From Mariprofundaceae bacterium (GTDB lineage: Bacteria; Pseudomonadota; Zetaproteobacteria; Mariprofundales; Mariprofundaceae): a DNA stretch of 64,000 nt. This document shows positions 3,246-28,373 of this stretch, one piece after another (within the stretch, counting starts at the first letter, position 1; each line of letters begins with the position of its first letter). The position numbers were made by a program, and so were the translations under genes. The stretch lies in the NCBI GenBank assembly GCA_021772895.1, contig JAJFLC010000013.1:62001-126000 (forward strand). Direction: 5' to 3'. The notes below the pieces were generated by a model. That model saw nothing but the letters and a program-made list of their open reading frames with translations, made no database searches and was not told the DNA's origin.

Positions 3246-3671
3246 TCATTCTAATATTACTTCATGGGCACGAAAAACCCAATATCTCTTAAATAAAAAA
3301 GACAGAGGGGCACACATAAGTGCCGCTATAACAAACCCCAATTGGTCCCCCCACATAGGATTAGATAATTCTGAGACAACCCAGCGACAAATTGGAGAGA
3401 ATACGGTTACCAGCCCCATCATAATAAAATTTGCGGCTATAAACTTGTAAAAACAACCCTTTCTTAAAAAAATCGCATGCCTTTGAATAAAATAATTAAC
3501 AATAATAAACGGAGGGTAAATGATAGCTGTAGAAATTGCATAATTGAGACTGCTGCCACTACCGATCAATTGGTATATCCACAGCTGAGCTGCCCAGGAA
3601 GCAATGCCCAGAATCCCGCCATTAATAGCAAAAAGAATAAACTGACGAACAATTATTTTTTTCTGTGGCAT
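3246..3671 (-). CDS. GtrA family membrane protein
   Basis: 141 residues with four hydrophobic helices and the family ends: RQFILFAINGG at the start and FKRYWVF near residue 130. GtrA proteins are four-helix membrane proteins thought to flip undecaprenyl-phosphate-linked monosaccharides to the periplasm, normally together with a GtrB-type synthase and a membrane glycosyltransferase. Both possible partners are in this operon (7301-8260 and 8350-10179). Eight bases separate it from the methyltransferase upstream. Substrate unknown. Confidence 0.8.
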   Translation of the reverse strand: MPQKKIIVRQFILFAINGGILGIASWAAQLWIYQLIGSGSSLNYAISTAIIYPPFIIVNYFIQRHAIFLRKGCFYKFIAANFIMMGLVTVFSPICRWVVSELSNPMWGDQLGFVIAALMCAPLSFLFKRYWVFRAHEVILE

Positions 3672-3679
3672 TTAAAATA

Positions 3680-4519
3680 TCAACTGTTTTTCACATGTTC
3701 ACAATCAACTTGCTCACGCCTCCTAATCACAACCATTTGATGAAGTGCTGTTACTGGTTGCAGAGGAGTAAGCAACCATTCAAACGCTTTTATAAGTGGT
3801 TCTACAAATGAGGGAAGTAGTTGTCTGAAATTGACTCCGCCAGAGGCTAGGTATCTAAAGCCATTGCTTAAAGTATTCATCTCTAAAATTTCTAACTCAT
3901 GGCCAAACAGCTCTTCAAAGTGTTCTCTATCTCGATGAAAAACCAAATAAGCAAGTGCCTGATTTGCACCCGAAAGCGGGCCGATAGAATATGGATTTAC
4001 CCATCCACTCATTTTTCGGTCAAACTGTTCTTCTGTATGTAAATATGTATGGACAAGACGTGAGAGCATTCCGTAATGGGGTTCAATAAGTATGCAGCCA
4101 CCACCTGGTTTCAATACCCTAATCAACTCTAAAAAAAACTGTTCTGGATCAGGCAGGTGATGAAAGACATTAATCGCATATAGCGATCTGACAGACTCAT
4201 CAGCCAAATCCAGATTTTGCGCATCTAACACCCGATCAATATGGTCTCCGAGCCTGACATCCGAAGTAATAAGGTTAGGGCGGATTTCCTTAAAAAATCC
4301 GGACCCACTCCCCAGTTCAACCTCCAACCCGTTGACTAAAAAATACTTTTCACAACCATCAAGCATTTCGGAATAAAAGTCTTCAAACACATGGCGCATT
4401 AGAGGCTTCTCAAGAAGAATCTGACGATGAATGGAAAGCAATTGATTATCGTCCACATTAACGCCACGGACTCGTGAGTCATATAATTTGTCACGCAACC
4501 AGCTCACTGCTTGTTTCAT
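3680..4519 (-). CDS. Class I SAM-dependent methyltransferase
   Basis: 279 residues. SAM motif I is VELGSGSGFF around residue 66, followed by an acidic SDVRLGD loop, and FHHLPDPEQFF (about residue 116) is the Methyltransf_11 post-motif. The C-terminal 60 residues have hydrophobic stretches that may touch the membrane. Its ATG overlaps the stop of the SDR upstream (4516-4519), so the two are probably translationally coupled. It belongs to the run FAD oxidoreductase-SDR-methyltransferase-GtrA, which suggests a sugar or lipid-linked sugar substrate; that is inference. Confidence 0.75.
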   Translation of the reverse strand: MKQAVSWLRDKLYDSRVRGVNVDDNQLLSIHRQILLEKPLMRHVFEDFYSEMLDGCEKYFLVNGLEVELGSGSGFFKEIRPNLITSDVRLGDHIDRVLDAQNLDLADESVRSLYAINVFHHLPDPEQFFLELIRVLKPGGGCILIEPHYGMLSRLVHTYLHTEEQFDRKMSGWVNPYSIGPLSGANQALAYLVFHRDREHFEELFGHELEILEMNTLSNGFRYLASGGVNFRQLLPSFVEPLIKAFEWLLTPLQPVTALHQMVVIRRREQVDCEHVKNS

Positions 4520-5337
4520 TTCAGCAACTCCAATTTAGATGTCAGGCTAGACTGATGTTCAGCACCCTGGTTTGATAAAAAGCCATTTAAGTTATCGCTG
4601 TTAACGGGCAACTTCACTCTCAAAAACTCTAAAAATTTCAAGCCCAGTAATATGAGCAATGAAGGAATCGGAATAATGAGTGGCTTTCTGCCAACCTCAC
4701 TGGCCGATCTCAGTACAAGCTTTCGCAAACTCACTAATTCTGGTTCAAACAAATTATAATCTCTTTGATCAGAAGTATCTTCGACAACTTGAAGAAGTAG
4801 CGTTGATAATAACATGACATCAATAATCGGCATTTCACCCCTTCCGCCATCCGGTAAGGGTATAATAGGCCATCGGTGTGAGACATGCTTGATTCGCCCG
4901 TACAATCCTCCCTCTCCAATAACAAGACCTGGACGAACAACAACCTGGTTGTTCTCAACGAAATAGCGCTCGAGTTTATATTTGGTTATACCGTATACCG
5001 ACTGAGCATGACTTCCAGATGAGTATGATGATACGAGCACCTGTTTCCTCACTCCTGCAGCCTGTGCCTGTTTAAAAAGCTTGAGTGTTCCAGCTAATGA
5101 TCGCTCTGCTCCTCTGCTTCCAGAAAAATCGTAGGCCAAGTGTATAAGTGCATCCACATTACTAAAATCTTCATTTAGTAGCTCCTGACCCAACTCCCAC
5201 ATAATACAACTTACAGAATCCCCATACTCTTCATCAATATTACGAAGCAAAAGCTGCAATGTGTGCCCGCAGTCAGTGAACCGCTTCAAGATATATCCAC
5301 CAATAAATCCGGATGAACCAGAAATCATTATTTTCAT
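4516..5337 (-). CDS. NAD-dependent epimerase/reductase (extended SDR)
   Basis: 273 residues. The N-terminal Rossmann motif is GSSGFIGGY (7-15), and the active-site pieces are SSYSSG near residue 103 and YGITK near 115, matching extended SDRs acting on sugars. The gene overlaps the FAD oxidoreductase at its start (5334-5337) and the methyltransferase at its stop, so these three are made together. An FAD oxidase plus SDR reductase is the arrangement of the DprE1/DprE2 epimerase pair, but there is no sequence claim of homology to DprE2. Substrate unknown. Confidence 0.7.
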   Translation of the reverse strand: MKIMISGSSGFIGGYILKRFTDCGHTLQLLLRNIDEEYGDSVSCIMWELGQELLNEDFSNVDALIHLAYDFSGSRGAERSLAGTLKLFKQAQAAGVRKQVLVSSYSSGSHAQSVYGITKYKLERYFVENNQVVVRPGLVIGEGGLYGRIKHVSHRWPIIPLPDGGRGEMPIIDVMLLSTLLLQVVEDTSDQRDYNLFEPELVSLRKLVLRSASEVGRKPLIIPIPSLLILLGLKFLEFLRVKLPVNSDNLNGFLSNQGAEHQSSLTSKLELLK

Positions 5338-6896
5338 TTCGGTAAAGATGCTGCAATTCGGGCAGCATTCGCCATAATGGTCAGGGTTAGGTTCTTGGCT
5401 GGAAGAGAGGGTAAAACCGACCCATCTATTGCGTGAACTCTCTTACAATTCCACAAGCGTCCGAGTCTATCTGTATTGAATTCCGATGGCGTTTCCTTCA
5501 TTGGCAGGGTACCAGCAAAATGAAATCCCCAGCCAACTGGCGATTCCTGAGCAAACCGCTCATGCCCATACAACCCAATTTTTCTAAAGGATCTTAATAA
5601 ATTCTGGATTCCATGATTATTAGGGCTAACGGGGTATTCCAGCCTTATCTCATTATCAACATCAAGTTTCAGCCGGTTTTTCAAATGTGGTATCGAAGGT
5701 CGCCAAATTTGAACTACAAAAAGTCCAGAAAGAATATTCTTTAGCAACCAAAGGTTTTCCTTCATTGAAAAGGGAAGATCGGGCAACAGATCCGACCTTA
5801 ACATTCCTCCAGCATAATAGATGCTCAGCATCTGTTTCTCTCCAGCATGATCGAAACAACCCGCGAGTTGGATAGGATAACTAATCACTGGCAACTCTGA
5901 TGCAATTGACGATGGCATAATTACTGGCAACAAGGTTGGCGGATGTTCCAAAACAGACAAAGAAGCATCTAACGCTCTGTTATTTAGCATTACGAGCCGT
6001 GCAGTCTGTAGTGCTCCACACGCCAGTAATAGGCGATTTGTTTTAATACGAACATTTTCACCTGAATCAACGTTTGAAGTTAACAGCTCTACATGACCAT
6101 TTTTCTCCAGATAACCATCAAGTCGAATCCTTGGAAGGTACTTAATTTTTCCTCGGGAAATCAATTCATCCAAAGTTCTTTGAGGAGTGTAGATAGAATT
6201 ATGACCGGTATTAAAAAACTCCGTCTCACCAAAATTATATGCCGAATAACCAGCATAATCTTCCGTCAACACAGCTAACCTTGGCCGCCCTAAAAGCAAA
6301 CCTGATTTGTTAACCTTATCTTTTTTTCTCTGATAAAGTGAGAGAAGTCTGGATGCAGACGGAATAATAGGAGAAGGAGCCAATAATTTTTCTGCTCCTC
6401 CAAAAAAACTACTCAAGTCATCTACTAATCCCGACACACCCATGTGCGCTTCAAGCCGATTATAGTATGGTTCAAGCTCGCTAGCCATAACAGGCCAGTC
6501 TCCAAGAGCATCCAAATCACTCTGTGTGTAACGATAAACCTGAGCACCCCAAGCGTTGGCAAACCCTCCTCGTGCATAACTTCCCCTTCCAGAATTAACA
6601 ATACTCTTCGACTCATCAGTTACAGAAAATGGAACTCCACTATGAACATATCGCATTTGGGAAGCCCTGAGTTTTGAATGGATTTTTGGAGAATCCAAAT
6701 TTGCCAACATTTCCCAATTACTTCCAAGTAACTCTTCGAGTTCCCCAGACCTCTTAGCATCACTAAGTGTTTCAGGATGAAATGGCGATGAGGCAATATT
6801 ACCCACATCAATAATAGCAGTCCCCGAGTGCTCTAACTCCAAGGCAGCCGCTATACCTGCGGCTCCAGAACCCACTATGACGGTATCAAATTCCAT
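5334..6896 (-). CDS. FAD-dependent GMC-type oxidoreductase
   Basis: 520 residues. The dinucleotide loop VGSGAAG is at 8-14. The C-terminal block AIDGSVLPSLPAKN followed by a TIMANA helix is the GMC_oxred_C signature. A His in the GFHFAGTLPM segment near residue 457 is a candidate catalytic base. No signal peptide or twin-arginine motif is visible, so it is probably cytoplasmic. It overlaps the small upstream gene by 11 bp and the downstream SDR by 4 bp. GMC members oxidise alcohols, including sugar hydroxyls. Here it likely oxidises a sugar made for this polysaccharide, perhaps at the lipid-linked stage. Confidence 0.75.
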   Translation of the reverse strand: MEFDTVIVGSGAAGIAAALELEHSGTAIIDVGNIASSPFHPETLSDAKRSGELEELLGSNWEMLANLDSPKIHSKLRASQMRYVHSGVPFSVTDESKSIVNSGRGSYARGGFANAWGAQVYRYTQSDLDALGDWPVMASELEPYYNRLEAHMGVSGLVDDLSSFFGGAEKLLAPSPIIPSASRLLSLYQRKKDKVNKSGLLLGRPRLAVLTEDYAGYSAYNFGETEFFNTGHNSIYTPQRTLDELISRGKIKYLPRIRLDGYLEKNGHVELLTSNVDSGENVRIKTNRLLLACGALQTARLVMLNNRALDASLSVLEHPPTLLPVIMPSSIASELPVISYPIQLAGCFDHAGEKQMLSIYYAGGMLRSDLLPDLPFSMKENLWLLKNILSGLFVVQIWRPSIPHLKNRLKLDVDNEIRLEYPVSPNNHGIQNLLRSFRKIGLYGHERFAQESPVGWGFHFAGTLPMKETPSEFNTDRLGRLWNCKRVHAIDGSVLPSLPAKNLTLTIMANAARIAASLPK

Positions 6897-7299
6897 ATCT
6901 CTCCAAGGACAATTTCCCCAGAAATTTTCTGAACAGGGCCCTGAGCCCCCAAAAAGGAAGTGTCAACCAAAACTGAAACCTTCGGTTAGACGGCCGGAAT
7001 GACTCAATATGGGCACCGTCACATTCTGAAAGATAAGAAATTAGAATCATTTTTTTTACTAATGGGTGGCGTTTTTTTCTATCACGGAGTGCAGACTCAA
7101 TATTTGTTATATTTGCTCCTGCCCTGATTAACGTGCAAATCTCATCGATTTCCATTTGATTCGCATTCAGGGTCGGGCACTCCTGATTTGCACGAACATA
7201 GTACTGAGTGAAATTTTTAGAAGCTAATCGCCCAAACATTGCCTGATGAAATGAGTTAGCCTCCGAGACCAAGTCATCTACTGATTGAAGAGATGTCAT
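6886..7299 (-). CDS. Small uncharacterised protein linked to the GMC oxidoreductase
   Basis: 137 residues, not recognised as a named family. It is mostly helical and polar, with two Cys residues (about 40 and 51) and a basic, hydrophobic C-terminal tail (FWLTLPFWGLRALFRKF) that could bind the membrane surface. It starts 1 bp after the stop of the GtrB-like gene and overlaps the FAD oxidoreductase by 11 bp, so a subunit or partner of that enzyme is the simplest reading. Gluconate/sorbitol dehydrogenase systems also pair a GMC flavoprotein with a small subunit, but I see no clear similarity to those subunits. Confidence 0.6.
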   Translation of the reverse strand: MTSLQSVDDLVSEANSFHQAMFGRLASKNFTQYYVRANQECPTLNANQMEIDEICTLIRAGANITNIESALRDRKKRHPLVKKMILISYLSECDGAHIESFRPSNRRFQFWLTLPFWGLRALFRKFLGKLSLERYGI

Positions 7300-7300
7300 T

Positions 7301-8260
7301 TCAGCTTTTTTCTATCCGCTGCTGTGACGCATCTTTAATCAACCCATTTTCAAAAAACATTTTATTTTGATGAGTAATTGAATCCAGAATCAGGCCAACA
7401 CCAATTGCCATCACTGCAACGAGTTCAAGGGATGCTGCAAGTACCGCTGAAGGTAAACGATGAACTTCCTGATATGTAAACCAGTCTTCGAATACAGGAA
7501 TGGAATAGTATAACCCTAATAGCCCGAAAAGTAGTGCAATAGCGAAAAAAAACAGCAGTGGCCGATAATGCCTGAGGATTTGGGCAATTGTAAAAATCAC
7601 CTTAGCACCATCTGAGAATGTGTTCAGTTTAGAAAAGCTTCCTTCCCGGCGATCAATGTATTCAATCGGAATCTCAATAATTCTGAATCGTTTATCTAAA
7701 GCGTGAAGAGTAACATCAGTTTCAACTTCAAACCCCTCAACCATAACAGGATAATTCTTAACAAATTTACGACTGAAGACCCTATAGCCACTCATAATAT
7801 CTGCAAGATTGGCCCTGAAAAGCCTATTAACCAATCCTTTTACCAAATTATTTCCAAGATTATGGAAACTCCTTTTGTTTTCCTGCTTGTAGTCTCCATT
7901 GCTCAAGCGATCACCAACAACCATGTCTGCCTGGCCATCAATTACAGGCTTAATCAAGTCATGTACCCTGTTAGCCGGATAAGTCATATCAGCATCGGAC
8001 ATGACATAGATATCGGCATCAATATTCATAAAGGCACGACGCACTGCATTACCTTTACCTTGCCGGAATTCATTAATCACTTCCCCAAAGGCATTTAAAC
8101 GTTTCAACGTATCCTGAGCAATTAAAGCGGTTGCATCGTCTGAATTATTATTAACAATAATAATTCTTGCATCTGGAAGCTCTCGATAGAACGCCTCAAT
8201 TGTTTCTGCAATTGTGAGTTCTTCATTATATGCAGGTAAAATGATAGCAATATCGACCAT
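7301..8260 (-). CDS. GT2 glycosyltransferase with two C-terminal membrane helices (GtrB/DPM1-like polyprenyl-phosphate sugar synthase)
   Basis: 319 residues from ATG at 8260, chosen because GGTGGGAG lies 4 bp upstream and the protein then begins directly with the GT2 strand IAIILPAYNEE. The acidic SDADMTYP motif (about residue 85) binds the sugar nucleotide. Two hydrophobic helices around residues 240-310 place it in the GtrB/DPM1 group, which transfers a sugar from a nucleotide donor to undecaprenyl phosphate at the inner membrane. With GtrA (3246-3671) and the GT-C-like protein (8350-10179) it completes a possible periplasmic side-branch system. Confidence 0.75.
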   Translation of the reverse strand: MVDIAIILPAYNEELTIAETIEAFYRELPDARIIIVNNNSDDATALIAQDTLKRLNAFGEVINEFRQGKGNAVRRAFMNIDADIYVMSDADMTYPANRVHDLIKPVIDGQADMVVGDRLSNGDYKQENKRSFHNLGNNLVKGLVNRLFRANLADIMSGYRVFSRKFVKNYPVMVEGFEVETDVTLHALDKRFRIIEIPIEYIDRREGSFSKLNTFSDGAKVIFTIAQILRHYRPLLFFFAIALLFGLLGLYYSIPVFEDWFTYQEVHRLPSAVLAASLELVAVMAIGVGLILDSITHQNKMFFENGLIKDASQQRIEKS

Positions 8261-8349
8261 TAACTCCCACCTAGAGTACAGTGACAAGTTTGATTTCCAC
8301 AGCTCAATTTACTTAACCCGATTTTCGTTTTCACTATGGATAAATTCCT

Positions 8350-10179
8350 CTACAAAACAGCATGTAAAAATTGTAAACTCCCTTCGATTCGAACAACCTT
8401 AAACAGTTCTCCATCCTCGAACTTTTTATTACCAAACAACTTCTCGTAACGTTTCCAAAAAGCAGCATCTGCATGTCCTACAAACAGATAATCATATCCT
8501 GAAACATATTTAGCCAGCTCTTCCGTATCCATTGCACATGTCCAGACATCTCCAGCATAGTATTTTTCCCCCACGGACCAACATCCCTGATTGCTTAAGC
8601 GGGGAATAATTCCATAACTGAACACCTGCATCTGATACCCTGTACTATTCTGCCAAATAAAATAAACCTTTTTATCCTCAGGAACCTTCACTGAAACAGC
8701 CGCCGAATAATTTTCCAGCATTTTCATTCCTGATGAGACCTCAGCCAAACCAACAGCGTACTTCAAATCTGTTATTACATGACGAGTTGATGGCATAGCT
8801 GTCGAAACTGTGAATAATAACAAAAACACAAGCGTAACTTTTTTGCCAGAGTTCTCATTCAATTGTTTCTGTAACAATATTGAAAAAAGAATTAAATATA
8901 GAGCTACAATGTATGTCCCAAGATATCTCGCAAATGAAGCCAGTCTCGGCCCTTCATATGCGCCAAAAAAGAACAGGTATAAAACCAGTAACAATAAGAG
9001 ATATGCAGCTAGCCCTCCCAGCAATCCGAAAAGCTGAATAGCGGCACTGCCTTTTTTGGTCTTATTATTCTCAAAATATATGATCATCATAGCAGCAATA
9101 AGAATTAATATGAATTTCATAGCGTTTTTTGGATGAGTACTGGCTTCCACAAATCTTTCAATCGTTATCTTCTGACGTTCAGTAGATATATTTGAGTCAA
9201 AGCTATTGATGATTTTCTCAATGGAAACATCAGGATTAAATGTTTTTGTCGCACCCATCGATTCAAAATGATTCTGCCAACTTGCATGAATCACAAATAG
9301 TGCTGGAACCATTAAAAGAGCAAGCAGTAAAGAGCTTATAACACTCTTTTTTTGCTTTAACAGCCACATCTGATCAAACACAATAATTGCAATAATGATG
9401 CCCGCAAATGCCATTCCCATCATCTTTATTACAGGCAAAACCAATATTACAGGTATAATTCTAACAACTGCATTAGAAGAGCGGTCACTTAACCAGTAAC
9501 TAACAACGCCGGAAGCAAACAGCAAGGCGACCAGAAGATCTACCATCAAGGTATGAAAGCCAGTTCCAAAATAGTGAATGGAACAGTAAAAAAAGAGAGA
9601 GCTAAGAATTAAAGCAAGCCAGCGACCTTTAGGCACTGCTAACAATAGTTGTGAACACGCTGCAAGGATAAGCAGGCCTTGAGCAAAAAAGGCTGCGGAT
9701 ACACTAAAGCCGGAAATCTGAAACACGAAGTAATGGAAAAGAACTGATCCAGGAGGATAATCTTTTTGCCATACAGGGTCATCTGCCTGAACCAGTCCAT
9801 TGTTATAATAGATAACTTTTGCTGTTCTCGCCCAATTAGAAAAGTCATCCCATGCGATAAAAAAACTATAATAATCAGTACTAACAAGAACAGTAAGAAG
9901 TATTGAGCCTACAAGAAAGAAAACAGTCCCTGGTGATGTAATAGAGACATTGCCAGTTTCCTTTACAACAGGAATGATAAGAGCAACAAACAGAATAATC
10001 CCAAGCCCCATCAACAATTGAGAAGAAGGCCCTAGTACATCTGCAAGAGCTGCAAAATATAGAAAAAGAGTAATTGATGTTCCAACAAACAAAAACGTGG
10101 ATTCCAATGGCCATTTAAAAAAACGGTTTAATAAAAGCCCATACCCTAATAATGAAGCCACAGTGGCAACTGCAAACAT
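8350..10179 (-). CDS. Polytopic membrane protein, probable GT-C glycosyltransferase
   Basis: 609 residues with about a dozen hydrophobic helices and a soluble C-terminal domain of roughly 140 residues. An early loop carries AWDDFSNW (about residue 108) and then DYPPGSVLFHY (about 140). A first-loop acidic pair followed by YPPG is typical of GT-C enzymes that use polyprenyl-phosphate sugars in the periplasm. I do not recognise a named family. Its placement beside the GtrB-like synthase suggests it adds that sugar to the polysaccharide. Start ATG at 10179 with AGGG upstream. Confidence 0.55.
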   Translation of the reverse strand: MFAVATVASLLGYGLLLNRFFKWPLESTFLFVGTSITLFLYFAALADVLGPSSQLLMGLGIILFVALIIPVVKETGNVSITSPGTVFFLVGSILLTVLVSTDYYSFFIAWDDFSNWARTAKVIYYNNGLVQADDPVWQKDYPPGSVLFHYFVFQISGFSVSAAFFAQGLLILAACSQLLLAVPKGRWLALILSSLFFYCSIHYFGTGFHTLMVDLLVALLFASGVVSYWLSDRSSNAVVRIIPVILVLPVIKMMGMAFAGIIIAIIVFDQMWLLKQKKSVISSLLLALLMVPALFVIHASWQNHFESMGATKTFNPDVSIEKIINSFDSNISTERQKITIERFVEASTHPKNAMKFILILIAAMMIIYFENNKTKKGSAAIQLFGLLGGLAAYLLLLLVLYLFFFGAYEGPRLASFARYLGTYIVALYLILFSILLQKQLNENSGKKVTLVFLLLFTVSTAMPSTRHVITDLKYAVGLAEVSSGMKMLENYSAAVSVKVPEDKKVYFIWQNSTGYQMQVFSYGIIPRLSNQGCWSVGEKYYAGDVWTCAMDTEELAKYVSGYDYLFVGHADAAFWKRYEKLFGNKKFEDGELFKVVRIEGSLQFLHAVL

Positions 10180-11691: not shown

Positions 11692-12699
11692 CTATTTGAG
11701 CATCGATAACATCAGTGAATTATGGAATTTTTCCATACCTTTGCTTTCTAAAAATTCTTTACCCTTCTCTCTCATTGCTTCGATATCTGATTTAGGTATA
11801 AACATAATATGATTGACAAGTTCATTCCATCCATGAAATTCAGTAAAATCAATGTAAATCTCAGGGTCAACATAATCAGCGACATCAGGAGCCCCATAAT
11901 AGATTGGAATGCATCCTGCATACAAACAATCAAACAACTTCTCTGTCATGTAGCCATCCATACGCATATTTTCAAAACAGAGACAGAATTCATAGCGACT
12001 CAGAATCTCAAATTTCGATTCACATGCACCTTTGTAGATAGACAGCAAGCGCTTTCGATTCTTCCAATATGGTATCCACATTGAAGAACGCGACAACCAT
12101 CGATCCCATCCTCGACCATACAAATCAACCAAGTCTGTCTTCGACAATGCCACCATAGCGTCAATTCGCTTACTGTAAAGTTCCTCATTTCGAGAGGCAG
12201 GCTTATGATTGCCGTTAATAACAACAACTCGTCTCTTCCTGTCCCTGTTCGCCCAGAAAGATTCAATGACATGATTAAACGGCTGTGGCCAATATAATTT
12301 TCTCAATTTGGATTGATCCACCCCATCAAATGCATATCCATCTCCATGAGTATTATGGACATACACCTCCTCAAACAGTGAGGTTAGCTTTGGAAGCGCC
12401 TTATAGATTGATGGGTCAACTACAGGAGGCTCAAAAACATAAAAACTTTTCATCAAGACATCCTGCTGCGCAGCCATTTCATCAAGATTGTCCAGCATAC
12501 CAAGTGAATAGTACTCTACTGGACCACCTTTGCGATCCCACAGGTCAAGAGTGTTAAGTTCAATCCCTTTCCCCTCGCACCTCTCTTTCAAAAAAATCCA
12601 TGGCCGTAAGCAATCATCTCTGTTTAACCCAGAGTCAACAAAAAAACGATTCCCGTAAAATGCCTGCGATGGCGGGTCTATAAAAAATCTTTTCTTCAT
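11692..12699 (-). CDS. GT10 fucosyltransferase-like (putative colitosyl/fucosyltransferase)
   Basis: 335 residues. The diagnostic GT10 block is near residue 240: CFENMRMDGYMTEKLFD followed by AGCIPIYYG, the GDP-fucose-binding alpha-1,3/4-fucosyltransferase motif. No signal or membrane segment is obvious. The start overlaps the stop of the methyltransferase upstream (12696-12699). The operon encodes Gmd, ColD and ColC, so its GDP-deoxysugar donor may be GDP-L-colitose (3-deoxyfucose) rather than GDP-fucose. Family call is firm, donor inferred. Confidence 0.85.
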   Translation of the reverse strand: MKKRFFIDPPSQAFYGNRFFVDSGLNRDDCLRPWIFLKERCEGKGIELNTLDLWDRKGGPVEYYSLGMLDNLDEMAAQQDVLMKSFYVFEPPVVDPSIYKALPKLTSLFEEVYVHNTHGDGYAFDGVDQSKLRKLYWPQPFNHVIESFWANRDRKRRVVVINGNHKPASRNEELYSKRIDAMVALSKTDLVDLYGRGWDRWLSRSSMWIPYWKNRKRLLSIYKGACESKFEILSRYEFCLCFENMRMDGYMTEKLFDCLYAGCIPIYYGAPDVADYVDPEIYIDFTEFHGWNELVNHIMFIPKSDIEAMREKGKEFLESKGMEKFHNSLMLSMLK

Positions 12700-13457: not shown

Positions 13458-14438
13458 TCACTGCACCCGACATCTCAATAACGTTAGCAGCAAAAGTGCA
13501 AAAAATTTCAATCCTCGCAAGGAAGTCATAGCGTCTTTCAGTAAACAAGAAAAAAAAACATCATCCAATATTTCCTTTGCGAGTTTAACATCGCCCTTTC
13601 GCAGGGCATTTCTGGCTCTTACAACATTATCCCGCATTAACCATATCTGATACCACTGTAGGTCGTTTGAATCAAGGCATGCGGCGACTTCAGGTTTGGC
13701 CATCCAATAATCGAGGATTGTAAACAGGTCTGCCCTGTCCGTTTTCATCTTATTATAACCATGACTAAAGTGGGATGTACTCACTCGATATTGTAACAGG
13801 GGTAAGTTAATCAATCCAAGTTTCCCAGCCTCGGCTATTCTGAGCCATGCATCCAAGTCTGCTCCTGAACCGAACGTACCTTCACGTAACTCTTTCACCA
13901 CCCCTATACAGGTTTTTGTTCTAATCATTGCACTCGGGCAGAAGAAAAAATTATTTTCTCTCAGCACAGCCTTTATAATGCAAGCCAACTCAAAAGAACC
14001 ACTCTCACCCACACCAAGGTTTAGGTAAGATGGTACATACGCAGTCCTTATTTTTCGGGCGTTTTCGTTGATAATATTGGCAAATGTCAAAACACCTCCT
14101 GCATCCTGATCGCTCTCGAGAAACTGCACCTCTTTTTCGATAATATCCGGCTGGTAGAGATCATCAGCGTGAAAAATGGCGGTGTATTTACCTCTTCCAA
14201 GATTTAAACAGCGGGTAAAATTTTTTTCTCCACTACTAGTTGCTTCAGCAAAATGGAATTGAATCCGATCATCTTCAAATTCACGGGCAATTTTAACTGT
14301 ATTATCAGTAGAAGCGTTATCAAAAATATGAATTTCGAGGTTTGGATAGCTTTGTGTTATGATTGAAGCCAAGGTTTCATGGAGTGTGCCTTCTGCATTG
14401 TAACATGGGATGCAAACACAGACTAAAGGTTGATCCAT
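13458..14438 (-). CDS. GT2 family glycosyltransferase
   Basis: 326 residues. It begins with VCVCIPCYNAEGTL, continues with FDNASTDNT near residue 40 and has the HADD metal/nucleotide-binding motif near 93, all GT-A/GT2 landmarks. The ATG at 14438 is preferred: it overlaps the previous stop as TAATG and has GGGGTGG 5 bp upstream, whereas the in-frame GTG codons just before it would enter that ribosome site. No membrane helices, so probably cytoplasmic repeat-unit assembly. Confidence 0.8.
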   Translation of the reverse strand: MDQPLVCVCIPCYNAEGTLHETLASIITQSYPNLEIHIFDNASTDNTVKIAREFEDDRIQFHFAEATSSGEKNFTRCLNLGRGKYTAIFHADDLYQPDIIEKEVQFLESDQDAGGVLTFANIINENARKIRTAYVPSYLNLGVGESGSFELACIIKAVLRENNFFFCPSAMIRTKTCIGVVKELREGTFGSGADLDAWLRIAEAGKLGLINLPLLQYRVSTSHFSHGYNKMKTDRADLFTILDYWMAKPEVAACLDSNDLQWYQIWLMRDNVVRARNALRKGDVKLAKEILDDVFFSCLLKDAMTSLRGLKFFALLLLTLLRCRVQ

Positions 14439-15433
14439 TAACACCACCCCAACGATTGAAATACCTGTAGAAACCGTTGACCGTATCCATGATCACGACG
14501 CACTCTATCCAGGCCGTTTTTTGTCACCCGTTCCAGCTCTTCAGGATCATTGAGATAGCGAATAGTTTTATCGACAAGCTCTTCAGGAGTTTGGTATATA
14601 ACAATCTCATTTCCAGGTTCAAACAATTTCTCCAATCCATCCACATAATAGCTTAACTGCATAGTTCCACACGCAGGGATTTCAAAGTGACGCCCTTTGA
14701 TCTGCTCATGCACCTTAGTGGAGCGAAAGCGATTCAATAAAGCACGCGGTGAAAAGAGCAGGTATCTAATATCCCAAGAGGGGCAATTCGTCATATTAAC
14801 ACTGATTTTTGACCGCTGAAACAGTTCAATCATCTTTGCTTCACTTAGCATACCATCCGGCCAGCGATAACCAAAAGCTTCAACCTTCACACCACTTTTT
14901 CGAAGCCTAGAGACCAGCCACTCCCTATATGGGTGCCAAGAACCAACGAATGAAACGTCTATGTCCTTAGCAAGGTGTGAGGCTGGGCAAAACAGTTGCT
15001 CATTTACTCCAAAAGGAACAAAAACAGCATTGCTTAATCCGTTGCGCGCATATCTTCTTACACCAGTAATATCCGTCGTAGTAAACACATCAAAACATGG
15101 TGCCCACTCAGCAACAAACTCCCGACGCCATCCATCATCATGAAAAAAGCAGAGTGTTTTAGTTAACCTCTGGAGACCTTTGACAAATCCTGTGGAAAAC
15201 TGATCGGTATAAAGCGAAAAAACCGTCACATCTGGCCGCCAATCTGTAATCTCATCAATCAAAGCCTGCTGCATGCTCTCTTGCCCCAACTCCTGAGTGA
15301 GGCCTAAATAGTCAAAGAAACGAACCTCCTCGAAGTGACTTTTTAGCCCTAGGTGGAAATGATTCCAGTCATATGAGAGGCCTCGGTTAGGATCACCATA
15401 ATCGTACTTCATACAAACCAATAAAACTTTCAA
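14438..15433 (-). CDS. CgeB-like glycosyltransferase (GT4/GT-B type)
   Basis: 331 residues. The layout is that of the CgeB/spore maturation type: CFFHDDGW near residue 93, VSFVGSWHPYREWL near 155, and a C-terminal FEIPACGTMQLSYY followed by YQTPEELVDK, which is the Glyco_trans_1_2 acceptor/donor block. Such proteins are common in O-antigen and flagellar glycosylation loci. It begins directly after the Wzx stop and overlaps the GT2 gene by 1 bp. Linkage and sugar unknown. Confidence 0.75.
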   Translation of the reverse strand: MKVLLVCMKYDYGDPNRGLSYDWNHFHLGLKSHFEEVRFFDYLGLTQELGQESMQQALIDEITDWRPDVTVFSLYTDQFSTGFVKGLQRLTKTLCFFHDDGWRREFVAEWAPCFDVFTTTDITGVRRYARNGLSNAVFVPFGVNEQLFCPASHLAKDIDVSFVGSWHPYREWLVSRLRKSGVKVEAFGYRWPDGMLSEAKMIELFQRSKISVNMTNCPSWDIRYLLFSPRALLNRFRSTKVHEQIKGRHFEIPACGTMQLSYYVDGLEKLFEPGNEIVIYQTPEELVDKTIRYLNDPEELERVTKNGLDRVRRDHGYGQRFLQVFQSLGWC

Positions 15434-16876
15434 TCAGGCCACCTCCCGGTCTATTTGAGATTTTAACAGCATGAATAAAATAACCAGCAAAACAGCTCCC
15501 ATGCTTAACAACCAAAAAAATGATTCAACAAGCGTATCACTAACACCCAACATAGCATGAGCAGCTTCAGTAACAGCTATTAACAGTAGTGATATCACCC
15601 CCGCTTGAAACAGTTTAGTCCATGGCATAATAATTTCAAAAGTTCTAGAAAGCAGCATATGGCTTGAGATCACCCCTATAAAACCAGCCATCGCCAAAGC
15701 CATTCCCACACCATGAGCCGCCCAATCAGAAATAAACAGGAAAACAAACAATGGAGCCGCTATTGCGCTAAAAACATTGGGAACAATAAGCTTCTTTGTA
15801 TCCATACCGGCATGAGCCACCAGCGCATAAGTTCCCACTGTTACCCGGGCAGCTTCGGCTAATGCTCCCCATACAATATATTGAGCAGCCGGAGCAAACT
15901 TTTCATCAAGCAATACACGTGCTAACTCATCAGAAACAGAAATAATAATCGCAATGGTCACCAGTAGACTGGCCAACATTGCTGATGCATATTCATGCCA
16001 TGACAGAGCTTGTTCATGCCTGTCCTCGGAAGAGGTTCGCTTATAAAATGTCGGTATAAAATAAGTGCCGATCACTGACTCGAAGACACCAATAAGCGAT
16101 GCACTGACACCATAACCCACTACAAATAGACCCAGCGCTTCCAGACCGATCACATCCTGAACAAGAAAGCGATAGGACTGACTTTGTACCCAGATTAACA
16201 GAACAGAAATGGCAAGTGGCCAGATAAATGCAAGCACAGTAAATACTTTAGCTGAAGTAACTAGCAATTCTTCGGAGCTGCTATTTTGTTTTTTGTGATC
16301 CTTCGTAAAACGAAAGAAAAGTAAACTGCCGACAATGGCTAGCATACCCTGCCCTATCAATTGTCCACCTTGCCATAACACGGCCTCTGGCTTAAACCAG
16401 GTCACAAGCAGCACTGATGCGATCAGACTAATAATCACTGTTCCCAACGTCAGAACTACAAACCATCCTCTGTATCCCAATAGGTTCAGCGAAGGAATAT
16501 AAGTCTGGTTTAGTGTTGCAAAGATAATGGCGCAAAAAACAAGAGCGACCACCCAGAATAATGGCATTCCGGGAACGGCTACATAATAGGTGTTCGAGGC
16601 ATAAAGCAAGAAAGCTGAAAACAGACCAACGCCACTCAGATAAATCGAATAATAGATCATATACCGGTCAATTTTTCCATTCTCTACCCAAGAGTGAAGA
16701 CGCCTATTAATGAACATCCCCAAAGGATTAACCATGGCTAACACAAAAAAAGAGGTTACTGCCAGAAGAAGCGACCAACGGCCCATCTCCTCAGGGGTAA
16801 GAAGGGATGTGATGATACGTAGAGCAAGCAGAGCCAACGCTGCCTGTGCAATGCGACCAAAAAAAATCAATCCCAT
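15434..16876 (-). CDS. wzx: Wzx-type polysaccharide flippase (MOP superfamily)
   Basis: 480 residues with 12-14 hydrophobic helices and few charged loops. The N-terminal FFGRIAQAALALLALRIITSLL helix pair followed by TPEEMGRW is typical of polysaccharide_synt/Wzx proteins, which move undecaprenyl-diphosphate repeat units to the periplasm. Its ATG overlaps the last base of colD. It works with the Wzy-like protein at 10223-11620. The chain-length regulator and the Wza-type exporter are not in this window. Confidence 0.85.
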   Translation of the reverse strand: MGLIFFGRIAQAALALLALRIITSLLTPEEMGRWSLLLAVTSFFVLAMVNPLGMFINRRLHSWVENGKIDRYMIYYSIYLSGVGLFSAFLLYASNTYYVAVPGMPLFWVVALVFCAIIFATLNQTYIPSLNLLGYRGWFVVLTLGTVIISLIASVLLVTWFKPEAVLWQGGQLIGQGMLAIVGSLLFFRFTKDHKKQNSSSEELLVTSAKVFTVLAFIWPLAISVLLIWVQSQSYRFLVQDVIGLEALGLFVVGYGVSASLIGVFESVIGTYFIPTFYKRTSSEDRHEQALSWHEYASAMLASLLVTIAIIISVSDELARVLLDEKFAPAAQYIVWGALAEAARVTVGTYALVAHAGMDTKKLIVPNVFSAIAAPLFVFLFISDWAAHGVGMALAMAGFIGVISSHMLLSRTFEIIMPWTKLFQAGVISLLLIAVTEAAHAMLGVSDTLVESFFWLLSMGAVLLVILFMLLKSQIDREVA

Positions 16877-21043: not shown

Positions 21044-22915
21044 TTAATCCAGGGTACCTGTCTCTAAAGTATTCGATTTATCATGAAGCCCAATCAGCAT
21101 ATTCTCTCTCATCTCATCTCTTGATAATAATGGAGACAAGTCCTCGAGTGGCGGCGAAATAATTGAGCCATCTTTTTGCGCTACCAGAGAAAGTTTTGGT
21201 ACAAACGGCTGCTCTGGATGTGTAAACACCTCACAGATAACCGGCCCATTAATTGCTTGTACCTCAGGGATAATGGTTTCTGTATCTTCCCATGTCCGAA
21301 TTTGGAATGATGGAATATCGAAAGCATAGGCAACTTTTGAGAAGTCGGGACAAGTCACGCCTGATTTTCGATCTGAACCTGAATAGCGACCAGAAAACAG
21401 TGCCTTTTGAGTATGTTTAATCATCAAGTAACCATCATTGTTAAAAATTATAATCTTGATTGGAAGGTTATGATGCGCAATGGTTTGCAGCTCCTGCAAA
21501 TTCAGCATCATACCGCCATCACAATTCAGGCACATCACCTCTCGATTTGCGCCAATGGCAGCACCGATGGCTCCAGGTAAACCAAACCCCATCTCCCCCA
21601 GTCCCGTCGATGTCATCATTCTCTGCCCAGCTTTGAATTTAAGCACTTGGTGAGCCGATAGCAGTGCAGTACCCATATCGGTCACCACAATTTGATCGTC
21701 ATGAAAATATTGTTCCAGCGACTGCATAAAACGATAGGAGTTAATAAAGCTGACTTCTGATTCATCCTGCATATCAGCATGCTCTGGACCTACAACTGGA
21801 TAATGTTGACGGTAGCTTTCACATTGTTTTATCCAGTCAGGTCGGCAAAACGACTCCTTGGTATGGCTCAAGAGCTGCTCCATGAATTTACCAGCATCAC
21901 TCAGAATCGGGGCTTGAATTCGATCACCAAGTTTCAGTAACTCATTTGAGTCAATATCAACCATGGCCACCTGAGCCGCACGAGCGAACTCCGTCAGATC
22001 GTAGCCAACTTGAGGGATGGCTAAACGTGTCCCAATGCAAATAAGCGCATCGCAATTTTGCAGCACAAAATTAGCTGCTCGCTGTCCATAAACGCCAGCC
22101 CTACCAAAACACAATAGATGATCGGAATCCAGAATGTCACAGGCTTGCCAACTTACCAGAGTTGGAATACCCATGGTCTCAACAAATTCTTTTGCAAGAT
22201 GCTCAGAGCCCGCCAACCTGATTCCATTTCCCAACCAAAGAACTGGGCGTGTGGAGGAAGTAAGTATTTTCTGAACGGCACTTACCCCATCTTTACAATC
22301 AAGGGTGTTAGCCTGATTATCATCTAAATTAGCTTCCGCATTTTCCAAGCTCGATGCAGCAGGCTGTAATTCAGCCTCGTCAATCATCGCAGCTTGGATA
22401 TTCATAGGTATATCAATCCAGACCGGCCCCTGTCTTGGTGCACCTGCAATGGCATATGCCCGAGAAATCACATCAAGCACTTTCTCCGGTTCCATGATGC
22501 GATCAGTCCACTTGGTCACCTTCTCAACCATTTGAGTACTGTCGTATCCTTGCACGCCCCAAATTCGAAGTGGATTTTCTACAGATGTAAATCGAGAGTT
22601 TTCATTTCCGGAAATAACAAGAACAGGCATCGAGTCCATCCATGCGCTCACAACCCCGGTCACCCCATTTGAAGATCCCGCCCCTGTCGTCAGCAACACG
22701 ACAGAAACCTTTCCTGTCGTGCGATAATAGGTCGTAGCAGCCATAATTGCTGCCTGTTCATGATGAACACAGATGATTTCTGTAAAACCACGGCGAGTGA
22801 TTGCATCAAAAACTTGTGCATTTCCCGCACCAACAATTCCAAATACATGAAGTATCCCCTGATCTGCAAAGAAATCAGCGATAAAATCACATGCTTTTTT
22901 TTCCACCAAAATCAT
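21044..22915 (-). CDS. Thiamine-diphosphate enzyme, acetolactate synthase-like (YerE-type sugar carboligase candidate)
   Basis: 623 residues from ATG at 22915, which overlaps the preceding stop as ATGA and has AGGAAAGGGG just upstream. Three-domain acetolactate synthase architecture: the catalytic Glu in VHHEQAAIMAA (about residue 48), the central Rossmann-like domain, and the ThDP motif near residue 470 written CDGGMM...FNNDGY, with Cys in place of the usual first Gly. No biosynthetic ilvN small subunit is nearby. In yersiniose loci YerE of this family decarboxylates pyruvate and adds the C2 unit to C-4 of CDP-3,6-dideoxy-4-ketohexose. Here the next genes make a different 2-keto acid, so a C4 transfer is proposed. 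Confidence 0.75.
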   Translation of the reverse strand: MILVEKKACDFIADFFADQGILHVFGIVGAGNAQVFDAITRRGFTEIICVHHEQAAIMAATTYYRTTGKVSVVLLTTGAGSSNGVTGVVSAWMDSMPVLVISGNENSRFTSVENPLRIWGVQGYDSTQMVEKVTKWTDRIMEPEKVLDVISRAYAIAGAPRQGPVWIDIPMNIQAAMIDEAELQPAASSLENAEANLDDNQANTLDCKDGVSAVQKILTSSTRPVLWLGNGIRLAGSEHLAKEFVETMGIPTLVSWQACDILDSDHLLCFGRAGVYGQRAANFVLQNCDALICIGTRLAIPQVGYDLTEFARAAQVAMVDIDSNELLKLGDRIQAPILSDAGKFMEQLLSHTKESFCRPDWIKQCESYRQHYPVVGPEHADMQDESEVSFINSYRFMQSLEQYFHDDQIVVTDMGTALLSAHQVLKFKAGQRMMTSTGLGEMGFGLPGAIGAAIGANREVMCLNCDGGMMLNLQELQTIAHHNLPIKIIIFNNDGYLMIKHTQKALFSGRYSGSDRKSGVTCPDFSKVAYAFDIPSFQIRTWEDTETIIPEVQAINGPVICEVFTHPEQPFVPKLSLVAQKDGSIISPPLEDLSPLLSRDEMRENMLIGLHDKSNTLETGTLD

Positions 22916-23979
22916 CCCCTTTCCTGGCTGTTTTGCATCAGATGCCATTGTGCAGTTAATTTAATGGCCTCATCCAAGGATGTGAACGCGGACAGGCCAT
23001 ATTCATTTTGAGCGTGCGTTGTATCCGGTAACAGTTGAGCAGAGCGCCCAAGACTGCGTGGTGAGGTGTTAAACATAATCTCCGGGGATGGTTCAAAGTT
23101 TTGAGCCACAAGTTTAGCCAAATCCTGTAGGGAAGTACCAACTGGACTACCCACATTAACAACATCGCCACCCTGCCCTGCGGTCAATATTTTCAAAAAC
23201 CAATATGCTGCATCGCTGCCATAAAGATAACTTCTAACCACCTGTCCATCACCTAACACCCGAATGGCATGCCCCTGTAGTGCATCCGATAAAAATGTAG
23301 TTTGTGCCCACGGTGTTTCCAATGATTGATACGGCCCAACAAATGAAAACGGACGAGCTACCAGCACAGGAACACGGGATTGCGCACGTGCGGCAGAGCA
23401 AATTGTCTCTGCAAAACGCTTCGAATTGGCATAAACAAAGCTGGCATCGGGTGCCGCTGCCCCTTGAGCACTTTCAGCCAAGCCCATTTCTGAGGCAGGC
23501 TGAGGGCCACAAACCAAACCCGAACTAAGATAAAGTAGTTTCTTTAACCGCCCTAGACGCTCGGCAGTTCTCATCACCGACATGGTTCCATCAACAACCA
23601 CCGATGCTGTATCAAGAGGATTTGATGCATGCGTACGAATATCAGGGTTGGCCGCAGCATGAATTACCCAATCAGCATCCATGGGAAATTCGCCTAGTTG
23701 CCGGACATCAGATTTGATTAGATGAATGTCTTCCCGATTGGCTAAATGAGGCAATCGATTTGAAAACTGTTCGGTACTCCGCGAGATCAGGGATAGTTTG
23801 ATTCCGAATTGATATGCGTCATTGAGGGCTGTAACCATTTCAGCAATCCATGTCCCTACAAATCCGGTTCCACCAACAATAACCAACTCAGATTGACGCA
23901 ATGGATCTAGTTCTTTATCTCGACCATCCAAAATTCTCAGACAGTCATGACGTATTCTTTCTTGGCGTTTCACTTTCAT
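22912..23979 (-). CDS. NAD-dependent SDR of the branched-sugar module (second of two)
   Basis: 355 residues. About 30 residues precede the GGTGFVGTW loop; HAAANPDIR, LYLSSG near residue 148 and YANSK near 180 give the SDR catalytic set, and VVNVGSPVG near 270 is a sugar-binding block seen in epimerase/dehydratases. It overlaps both neighbours by 4 bp (TPP enzyme at its stop, aldolase at its start), so it is made in step with them. Its layout parallels the SDR at 19969-21036, perhaps from an old duplication. Likely a ketoreductase or epimerase on the CDP-branched sugar. Confidence 0.72.
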   Translation of the reverse strand: MKVKRQERIRHDCLRILDGRDKELDPLRQSELVIVGGTGFVGTWIAEMVTALNDAYQFGIKLSLISRSTEQFSNRLPHLANREDIHLIKSDVRQLGEFPMDADWVIHAAANPDIRTHASNPLDTASVVVDGTMSVMRTAERLGRLKKLLYLSSGLVCGPQPASEMGLAESAQGAAAPDASFVYANSKRFAETICSAARAQSRVPVLVARPFSFVGPYQSLETPWAQTTFLSDALQGHAIRVLGDGQVVRSYLYGSDAAYWFLKILTAGQGGDVVNVGSPVGTSLQDLAKLVAQNFEPSPEIMFNTSPRSLGRSAQLLPDTTHAQNEYGLSAFTSLDEAIKLTAQWHLMQNSQERG

Positions 23980-25007
23980 TTACCTCCTTTCGCAGCCTGT
24001 AGGGCGAGCTCTTTGGCAACTTCTAGGATCATGTCCTCTTGGCCCGCCACGATCTTGCACCGTCCAAGTTCAAAAAACAGATCGCGAGGATCAACATCAA
24101 ACTCCTTAGCAATGCGTGAAACTGGCCTCATAAAACCGGAAAACACCCCGGCCGTACCACTCACAACACTAACCGATGTTATCGATGGTATTTTTTGCAT
24201 AAGTATTTGTTCAGCAAGATCACCGGCATCTAGGATTTTGTATAAATCAATTCCTGTCCTGTATCCCAGCCGTTCTAGAACGGCAACAAGCACTTCCAGC
24301 TGGGTGTTCCCAGCGCCTGCACCAAATCCTCGCGCACAACCATCCAATAATGTTGCACCTGCTTCGGCGGCTGCAATTGAATTTGCTATAGCCAGTCCTA
24401 AGTTATTGTGTGCATGGAATCCAACAGCAATTGAAAGCTCACTTACAAGCAACTCTACTCGCTTGCGAACATCTTCAGGAAGAAAATGCCCTGAAGAATC
24501 CATAAAGACAACTCCCTCTGCACCATACGACTCCATCTTCCTGGCTTGCTCTAAAAGAAATACGGGTGAAATCATATGAGACATCATCAGGCAACCCCAG
24601 ACCTCCACACCCTGACCGCGAGAGAAACTAATATGTCGTTCGCAAATATCAGCTTCACTGCAATGTGCAGCAACTCTGACCACATCAACCCCCATCCCTA
24701 ATGCTGGCTTCAAATCCCTTTCGATTGTAGCAAAACCTGGAATGACGTGAATACCCAACTTAGACTTGGTAAGGTTTTTTCTCGCAACCTCTAAAGCAAT
24801 ACTATCCGGTGTTTTGGCTTCACCAACCAATAGTGAGGATGCGCCAAGACCATTTCCATGCCCAACTTCAACGATAGATACACCCGCAGCATCAGCAGCC
24901 CTGCAATATGCTGCAATTTGTTCAACGTCCAACTGATGGCCTACCGCATGGTTCCCATCTCGCAGTGTAGGGTCGCTGATAGAAATTGTGCAGTTACGCT
25001 CCATCAT
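23976..25007 (-). CDS. 4-hydroxy-2-oxovalerate aldolase-like (DmpG/MhpE family)
   Basis: 343 residues, HMGL-like TIM barrel. DPTLRDGNHAVGHQ at the start and VEVGHGNGLGASS near residue 47 are DmpG/BphI signatures, and GFHAHNNLGLA near 205 carries the metal-binding His pair. The C-terminal part is the DmpG communication domain that docks the acetaldehyde dehydrogenase. Known reaction: 4-hydroxy-2-oxopentanoate to and from pyruvate plus acetaldehyde. No aromatic meta-cleavage genes are present, so the synthetic direction in sugar formation is more likely. Start ATG at 25007 overlaps the partner's stop; a second ATG follows at 25004. Confidence 0.85.
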   Translation of the reverse strand: MMERNCTISISDPTLRDGNHAVGHQLDVEQIAAYCRAADAAGVSIVEVGHGNGLGASSLLVGEAKTPDSIALEVARKNLTKSKLGIHVIPGFATIERDLKPALGMGVDVVRVAAHCSEADICERHISFSRGQGVEVWGCLMMSHMISPVFLLEQARKMESYGAEGVVFMDSSGHFLPEDVRKRVELLVSELSIAVGFHAHNNLGLAIANSIAAAEAGATLLDGCARGFGAGAGNTQLEVLVAVLERLGYRTGIDLYKILDAGDLAEQILMQKIPSITSVSVVSGTAGVFSGFMRPVSRIAKEFDVDPRDLFFELGRCKIVAGQEDMILEVAKELALQAAKGGK

Positions 25008-25918
25008 TCCCCCGTCGATCCTTTACTATGAGCAAGACTTGCATATTCTTCAGCCATGGCAATCGCAGCACAGTTAATAATGTCCAAGTTACCTGCATAG
25101 GCTGGTAAATAATCACCCAGTCCACGAACCCTTGCAATCACCACAATACGATCATTTTCCACAATCGGCCCAAAAATAATTTCGTAACCAGGAACATATT
25201 TACGAACATTCTCAACCAGTGGTTCCAAAATCTCGACTAACTTGGGGATATTCGGGTTATTAACTTTTGCAAAAATGGTAGCCTGCATATCAATGCATGG
25301 TTCGGCAGGGTTTAAATTAAGTATGGCCTTGGTTCGGGTCGCACCTGAAAATTCTCTAAGCCCTTCCTCCGTTGTTTTTATGTACTCATCGAGATTTTGT
25401 CTGGTTGCTGGCCCGGCACTCCGTGAAGCAATGCTTGAAACAACCTCAATATAATCAACATCAGTCTGACTTTGGCCAATGGCATATGCCACCGGAATAG
25501 AGGCTTGTCCGCCACATGTCACCATGTTGACATTAAATTCTGCGAGAGAATCTTCCAAATTCACACTAGGTACACTCATCAATCCTATTTTCGCCGGAGT
25601 AAGATCGATAACTCGCTTGTTCAGTTTTTTAAAAACAGGGGCATGCTCAAGGTGGCTTTTGGCTGATGTTGCATCAAAAATCAATTCACAACAGTCTGGA
25701 TTCTGCACAATATAATTAATTCCGTCAGCCGAGACGGTAACGCCCAAAGAAAGTGCTTTAACCATACCTACAGAGGATAAATTTCTACCAATAAATGCTC
25801 CACATTCAAGTGATGGAGAACGTAAAATCTTGATTAAAAGATCCGTTCCAATATTTCCGCTCCCGATAATGGCTATCCTGAGTTTATTTTTTGGTTGAAC
25901 CACAGCCTTTCTGCTCAT
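25004..25918 (-). CDS. Acetaldehyde dehydrogenase (acetylating), DmpF/MhpF family
   Basis: 304 residues. The NAD loop IIGSGNIGTDL is near the N-terminus, and MVTCGGQASIP near residue 128 carries the catalytic Cys of the family. The usual partner is the DmpG-type aldolase, encoded next with a 4-bp overlap; the two proteins form a complex that channels acetaldehyde. In degradation it turns acetaldehyde into acetyl-CoA. In this operon, reduction of acetyl-CoA to acetaldehyde for aldol addition to pyruvate is proposed. It starts 6 bp after the rfbH stop. Confidence 0.88.
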   Translation of the reverse strand: MSRKAVVQPKNKLRIAIIGSGNIGTDLLIKILRSPSLECGAFIGRNLSSVGMVKALSLGVTVSADGINYIVQNPDCCELIFDATSAKSHLEHAPVFKKLNKRVIDLTPAKIGLMSVPSVNLEDSLAEFNVNMVTCGGQASIPVAYAIGQSQTDVDYIEVVSSIASRSAGPATRQNLDEYIKTTEEGLREFSGATRTKAILNLNPAEPCIDMQATIFAKVNNPNIPKLVEILEPLVENVRKYVPGYEIIFGPIVENDRIVVIARVRGLGDYLPAYAGNLDIINCAAIAMAEEYASLAHSKGSTGE

Positions 25919-25924
25919 CTTAAA

Positions 25925-28371: not shown

Positions 28372-28373
28372 AT

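Follow-up and report, generated by a model that had tools for sequence, protein, structure and literature searches.

The window analysed here is a 64,000-nucleotide stretch of the genome of a Mariprofundaceae bacterium (contig JAJFLC010000013.1). From position 10179 down to 3246 it carries an operon of seven genes on the minus strand, nearly all overlapping or touching, in which a predicted flavin adenine dinucleotide (FAD) enzyme, a small helical protein, a short-chain dehydrogenase/reductase (SDR) and a methyltransferase (MT) lie between predicted components of lipid-linked sugar transfer. This order, including the overlaps, had been proposed in a sequence-only reading of the stretch, and the open reading frames (ORFs) are indeed present as follows.

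8350–10179, minus strand: GT-C-like polytopic membrane protein, 609 aa, with 11 predicted transmembrane (TM) segments, a WDD motif in an early loop and a YPPGS motif.
7301–8287, minus strand: GtrB/DPMS-like GT2, a predicted polyprenyl-phosphate sugar synthase, 328 aa when read from a TTG (PF00535).
6886–7299, minus strand: small helical partner protein, 137 aa, with a long hydrophobic and basic C-terminal helix and no family.
5334–6896, minus strand: predicted FAD sugar oxidoreductase of the GMC superfamily, 520 aa (PF05199, above cut-off).
4516–5337, minus strand: predicted extended-type SDR reductase/epimerase, 273 aa (PF01370, above cut-off), with GxxGxxG and YxxxK motifs.
3680–4519, minus strand: class I S-adenosylmethionine-dependent MT of a module-specific family, 279 aa.
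3246–3671, minus strand: GtrA-like small membrane protein, a proposed flippase, 141 aa (PF04138, 1.2e-4, below cut-off).

A 1-bp gap separates the GtrB-like gene from that of the small protein, which overlaps the FAD gene by 11 bp. The FAD/SDR and SDR/MT overlaps are 4 bp each, and 8 bp lie between the MT and GtrA-like genes. The GT2 probably starts at the ATG at 8260, which gives a normal GT2 N-terminus, rather than at the TTG of the ORF calling.

The FAD protein contains an N-terminal FAD Rossmann motif and a GMC C-terminal domain (GMC_oxred_C, 1e-7), and its AlphaFold2 (AF2) model reaches a pLDDT of 90.3 and a pTM of 0.93. In a profile search of the PDB, the alpha subunit of FAD-glucose dehydrogenase (FAD-GDH) matched at 1e-29 and pyranose and glycoside oxidases were also found, while Foldseek returned FAD-GDH at 4e-26. 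The nearest solved structures are FAD-GDH alpha, fructose dehydrogenase, pyranose oxidases and C-glycoside oxidases. Its sequence and modelled fold place the enzyme in the sugar-oxidising branch of GMC proteins. Homology to DprE1, the oxidase of the DprE1/DprE2 pair, was ruled out by the GMC family match and by the GMC structures and fold; no ALO-family (DprE1-type; ALO/FAD_binding_4) protein was found in the host genome. The predicted catalytic pair, aligned with the His/Asn of FAD-GDH, consists of His459, invariant in 67 of 67 FAD relatives, and Asn502, present in 43 of the 67. We saw no signal peptide or TM segment in the FAD enzyme, so its location is predicted to be cytoplasmic. The SDR matches Epimerase (PF01370) and NAD_binding_10, and its catalytic Tyr115 and Lys119 are conserved (64/65). 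The MT matches Methyltransf_11 (PF08241, 2e-10), and a profile of module MTs built without the window matches it at 1e-93.

Scanning genomes for the pattern of a four-sequence FAD alignment yielded 80 loci with relatives of the FAD protein at 25–38% identity. Profiles built from the FAD-relative loci were then searched against all six frames of each locus, with 83 loci usable. Because loci were picked by FAD alone, the neighbour counts are frequencies conditional on it; Pseudomonas contributes more than its share of loci, and contig edges cut some of them short. The relatives span at least 12 phyla, including Acidobacteriota, Nitrospirota, Verrucomicrobiota, Planctomycetota, Myxococcota, Bdellovibrionota, Chloroflexota, Sumerlaeota, Vulcanimicrobiota, Gemmatimonadota, Nitrospinota, Pseudomonadota and candidate phyla. 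Among the 78 genomes of the host's class, which contains a single order, none besides the window protein was found.

The small domain lies directly upstream of the FAD gene in 74/83 loci, and a same-strand SDR adjoins it in 69/83. A GtrB-like GT2 is nearby in 46 of these loci, an MT lies within 4 kb in 31, and GtrA is found in 18. The density of GtrB-like GT2 genes is 0.68 per 10 kb near the module and 0.19 far from it, an approximately 3.5-fold difference. The small/FAD/SDR adjacency conserved across phyla rules out a chance juxtaposition of genes. Co-occurrence elsewhere had been set beforehand as one test of the sequence-only reading, and related orders do occur across phyla.

Two ARRANGEMENTS of the module are seen. 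Type A, small-FAD-SDR with or without a following MT, is carried by the window and by Acidobacteriota, Verrucomicrobiota, Myxococcota, Nitrospirota and Chloroflexota; type B has the order SDR-small-FAD. The window's order GtrB-small-FAD-SDR-MT is also found at loci L011 and L014 (Myxococcota, Verrucomicrobiota). About 15 Proteobacteria, Pseudomonas among them, show GtrB-MT-GtrA-SDR/small-FAD with a PMT-type protein upstream, and the full Pseudomonas-type order is a GT4+GT2 protein, a PMT-like protein, GtrB, MT, GtrA, fused SDR-small and FAD. The arrangements do not scatter at random over the FAD tree, where the window sits within the type A clade. Type B FAD proteins (e.g. L037, L069, L081) have an Fe-S-like Cys triad, C-x5-C-x3-C, where FAD-GDH carries its Fe-S ligands. 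The window and the other type A members lack this triad; the middle Cys occurs in 37/67 relatives. The presence or absence of the triad may mark different electron acceptors.

The small protein had been listed as a 'small unknown protein'. Its 137 residues indeed match no family in the family libraries. It is an integral, conserved partner and not a bystander, present in 74 of the 83 loci. In 24 loci the corresponding helical domain is fused in one open frame to the SDR C-terminus, while the window carries it as a separate protein. With hhalign, the stand-alone A-type and B-type domains match each other at 2e-12, the B-type and SDR-fused forms at 5e-18, and the A-type and SDR-fused forms at 6.5e-6. 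The AF2 model (pLDDT 91.5) is all-helical with seven helices, and no fold match to it was found in the PDB. In most members the C-terminal region is a hydrophobic, mostly net-positive helix, TM-like in some, and this character suggests membrane contact.

The domain is closely tied to the FAD enzyme. Over 399 Pseudomonadota genomes its profile matches in two, both with FAD adjoining, and exactly one copy is present in 40 of 44 relatives' genomes, adjacent to FAD in 39 of these 40. The small, FAD and SDR genes have evolved as a linked set. The SDR-small fusion, together with the split copy adjoining FAD elsewhere, is Rosetta-stone evidence that the three proteins act in one complex. In the L017 genome, the sole small-domain gene is unlinked from FAD and stands alone on another contig (L093 6148–6609), the only such case among the genomes examined. 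An identity as a gamma-type subunit of gluconate-2-dehydrogenase or FAD-GDH found no profile or fold support, and an unrelated or spurious ORF was ruled out by the hhalign homology, the exclusivity and the single-copy retention with FAD.

Among the membrane and lipid-sugar components, the GT2 (PF00535, 1e-22) has two C-terminal TM segments and a DAD motif. Its nearest PDB entries are DPMS (5mlz, 4e-12) and then ArnC, and its best NCBIfam model is AglJ (TIGR04182) at 202 bits, below the 325 cut-off; from this closest model, a hexose such as glucose is a plausible sugar. No PF04138 match was found over the host's whole genome, and Pseudomonas-type relatives contain a clear GtrA inside the module (PF04138, 1e-15). 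The 609-aa protein has no Pfam family match. We infer its GT-C assignment from topology and motifs, and propose that it is a periplasmic transferase using a polyprenyl-phosphate sugar. PMT-type GT-C proteins occupy the equivalent position in L009, L014, L037 and L069. Downstream of the L014 module lies a PMT_2 membrane protein (13584–15890) whose C-terminus bears a CBM_4_9 carbohydrate-binding domain; it recalls the CBM-bearing GT136 enzyme (PMC11127046).

A conserved polytopic family of about 515 aa precedes GtrB-SDR-small-FAD in Nitrospira, Methylococcaceae, Acidobacteriota, Gemmatimonadota and Planctomycetota, with these members:

L069, 5971–7521: polytopic family member.
L068, 5826–7364: polytopic family member.
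L081, 5199–6743: polytopic family member.
L049, 6021–7526: polytopic family member.
L062, 6971–8602: polytopic family member; GtrB was not called at this locus.

The three members scanned (L069, L068, L062) gave no Pfam match, and the family is a candidate new GT-C family.

We consider the chances about even that the operon decorates a surface polysaccharide with a chemically edited sugar, through lipid-linked redox editing by a set that would resemble DprE1/DprE2 by analogy and not by homology. In the proposed route, the GT2 would charge undecaprenyl phosphate with a hexose taken from a nucleotide sugar, a step with family-level support. A complex of FAD enzyme and small protein, held at the membrane via the C-terminal helix of the latter, would then oxidise one ring hydroxyl of this putative substrate to a ketone, at C3 or C2 by analogy with the nearest relatives. 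The oxidase step is given to the FAD protein because of its sequence and fold. The SDR, which in other lineages forms one polypeptide with the helical domain and so is probably part of the FAD/small complex, would re-reduce the ketone from the opposite face, resulting in a net epimerisation. The MT may methylate the sugar, at a putative position, in a step that would be optional across the family. Following the GtrA/GtrB/GT-C scheme, the GtrA-like protein would flip the product, and the GT-C protein would attach it as a side branch on the periplasmic side. More broadly, and with somewhat less than even confidence, we suggest that a membrane-associated GMC flavoenzyme, a helical adaptor and an SDR form a hitherto undescribed redox epimerase, convergent with DprE1/DprE2, which edits polyprenyl-phosphate hexoses in more than 10 phyla, with a dedicated MT widening the range of glycan sugars.

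Several observations favour the proposed route: the conservation of small, FAD and SDR, the fusion, the exclusivity, the sugar-oxidising kin of the FAD enzyme, the SDR residues, the C-terminal helix, the GtrB enrichment and the glycan cluster. The earlier suggestion of redox editing of the sugar, perhaps on the lipid in the manner of DprE1/DprE2, is partly supported: the co-occurrence of the genes elsewhere, the GMC kin, the SDR Tyr/Lys and the GtrB density speak in favour. The likeness to DprE1/DprE2 is one of analogy and not of homology.

On the other hand, a number of points weigh against this proposal. It is based on sequence and predicted structures. The window FAD branch is long (1.55), and the enzyme may have drifted in function. 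The GtrB enrichment is real but partly due to one lineage, as many counts come from a single Pseudomonas lineage. Polytopic proteins are not enriched (0.92 near versus 0.81 per 10 kb far from the module), and such an enrichment was dropped as support for a GT-C. The GtrA-like protein scores 22.7 bits against PF04138 (cut-off 26.1), and its single-sequence hhalign match is weak. While family matches uphold the original GT2, GMC FAD, SDR and MT labels, those of GtrA and GT-C are softer. No close relatives of the window GT-C and GtrA were found in other module loci or in the host class. The solved structures nearest to the MT are methyltransferases of lipids and small molecules, not of sugars. 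In Chloroflexota (L027, L028, L030), small-FAD-SDR was seen without glycan neighbours, and in the Rhizobium version (L004), SDR-FAD lies beside GmhA/HddA/GmhB-like genes of a heptose-nucleotide pathway.

These last two cases, the heptose activation genes and the modules without GtrB neighbours, fit a scheme in which the FAD, small, SDR and MT proteins edit a soluble nucleotide sugar in the cytoplasm and the GT2 then loads the finished sugar, the operon layout being the pathway order. PF01370-type SDRs commonly act on nucleotide sugars. However, the hydrophobic, mostly net-positive helix in most small-family members, the enrichment of GtrB-like GT2 beside the module across unrelated phyla, and the action of the nearest FAD relatives on free sugars and glycosides speak against it, and we regard cytoplasmic editing as rather unlikely. 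The Chloroflexota modules, standing alone, could also be read as a general membrane oxidoreductase complex of glycolipids or other lipids with variable neighbours, to which the GtrB/GtrA/GT-C link would be secondary. The unlinked small gene kept in the L017 genome and the lack of polytopic enrichment agree with that, but GtrB and GT-C recur independently in Pseudomonas-type, Nitrospira, Myxococcota, Verrucomicrobiota, Methylococcaceae and Acidobacteriota loci, which makes it improbable in our view. The fate of the keto-sugar offers another possibility. The MT might C-methylate it next to the ketone before SDR reduction, giving a branched-chain methyl sugar in place of an epimer or an O-methylated one. 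Deoxysugar C-methyltransferases are well known to methylate carbons adjacent to ketones, the MT gene follows directly or lies beside FAD/SDR in the 31 loci that have it, and the distant matches of the MT among solved structures include a sterol C-methyltransferase (E 6e-4). Yet the other distant matches are N- and O-type methyltransferases, most loci keep FAD and SDR without an MT, and no active-site evidence favours C- over O-methylation; the prospect of such a branched sugar is slim.

The operon is embedded in a larger polysaccharide cluster with a Wzx-like (glycan flippase-family) protein, GT4 and GT10 transferases and CDP-/GDP-sugar genes. At 21044–29141 (minus strand), glucose-1-phosphate cytidylyltransferase, CDP-glucose 4,6-dehydratase and RfbH constitute a CDP-glucose pathway. 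They adjoin a thiamine pyrophosphate-dependent enzyme, a 4-hydroxy-2-oxovalerate aldolase and an acylating acetaldehyde dehydrogenase, and the region looks like a route to a yersiniose-type branched-chain 3,6-dideoxy sugar with its own acetaldehyde/pyruvate supply. Meanwhile, a GT10 fucosyltransferase-like protein (11692–12699, minus strand) and a GDP-mannose 4,6-dehydratase (29202–30284, minus strand) within the same cluster suggest that the glycan contains fucose or a similar 6-deoxyhexose.

By sequence, the helical partner domain is previously undescribed, and the module recurs in more than 10 phyla, often beside lipid-linked-sugar enzymes. No description of the module was found in open-licence literature on the GMC/GtrA/undecaprenyl link. 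Among tuberculosis drug targets DprE1/DprE2 is a major one, and oxidase/reductase pairs that epimerise lipid-linked sugars are otherwise known mainly with pentofuranoses as substrates. If the proposal is true, a non-homologous equivalent acts on GT2-loaded sugars in more than 10 phyla, including common soil Pseudomonas, which widens the routes to rare surface sugars. A new protein domain would also gain a function, and the cultivable P. fluorescens/P. brassicacearum group would provide a direct test system for the chemistry.

Compared with known systems, the pyranose and C-glycoside 3-oxidases share the fold branch of the FAD enzyme. PsG3Ox oxidises glycosides at C3 with the catalytic pair H440/N484 (PMC10646112), spaced equivalently to H459/N502 of the window enzyme. 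In contrast to the module, these oxidases are catabolic and soluble, and come without an SDR, small domain or polyprenyl-sugar genes. FAD-GDH (gamma-alpha) and fructose dehydrogenase, the nearest solved structures, likewise pair a GMC catalytic subunit with a small protein from a neighbouring gene. However, the small partner in the window matches no solved chain in sequence or fold, and this includes the gamma subunits; the window enzyme lacks [3Fe-4S]-type Cys ligands, and no cytochrome was found in the operon.

The three-component pentofuranose system of Citrobacter youngae uses a single SDR epimerase (ORF13), a MATE flippase and a pentose derived from phosphoribosyl pyrophosphate (PRPP) (PMC11127046). 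There a lipid-linked sugar is edited before periplasmic GT-C transfer, with an SDR setting its identity, as is proposed for the window; the window has FAD, small and SDR proteins with GtrA/GtrB instead. GtrA/GtrB/Gtr(type) O-antigen glucosylation operons unite a GT2 polyprenyl-phosphate sugar synthase, a GtrA-type protein and a polytopic GT-C, with which the GtrB-like GT2 and the candidate GtrA and GT-C proteins of the window operon compare; in the latter, redox and methyltransferase genes lie between the canonical components.

The mycobacterial decaprenyl-phosphoryl-ribose 2'-epimerase DprE1/DprE2, alongside which arabinofuranose side-chain systems have been discussed (PMC11127046), shares the placement of FAD oxidase and SDR reductase genes beside polyprenyl-phosphate-sugar and GT-C (in the window, candidate GT-C) genes, and by analogy the two-step epimerisation on a lipid-linked sugar proposed here. 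The module differs in that its FAD enzyme is of the GMC and not the VAO/ALO type, its SDR is of the extended type, a helical partner domain is added, sugar entry is by a GT2 and not by a PRPP-using prenyl-phosphoribose synthase, and an MT is often present.

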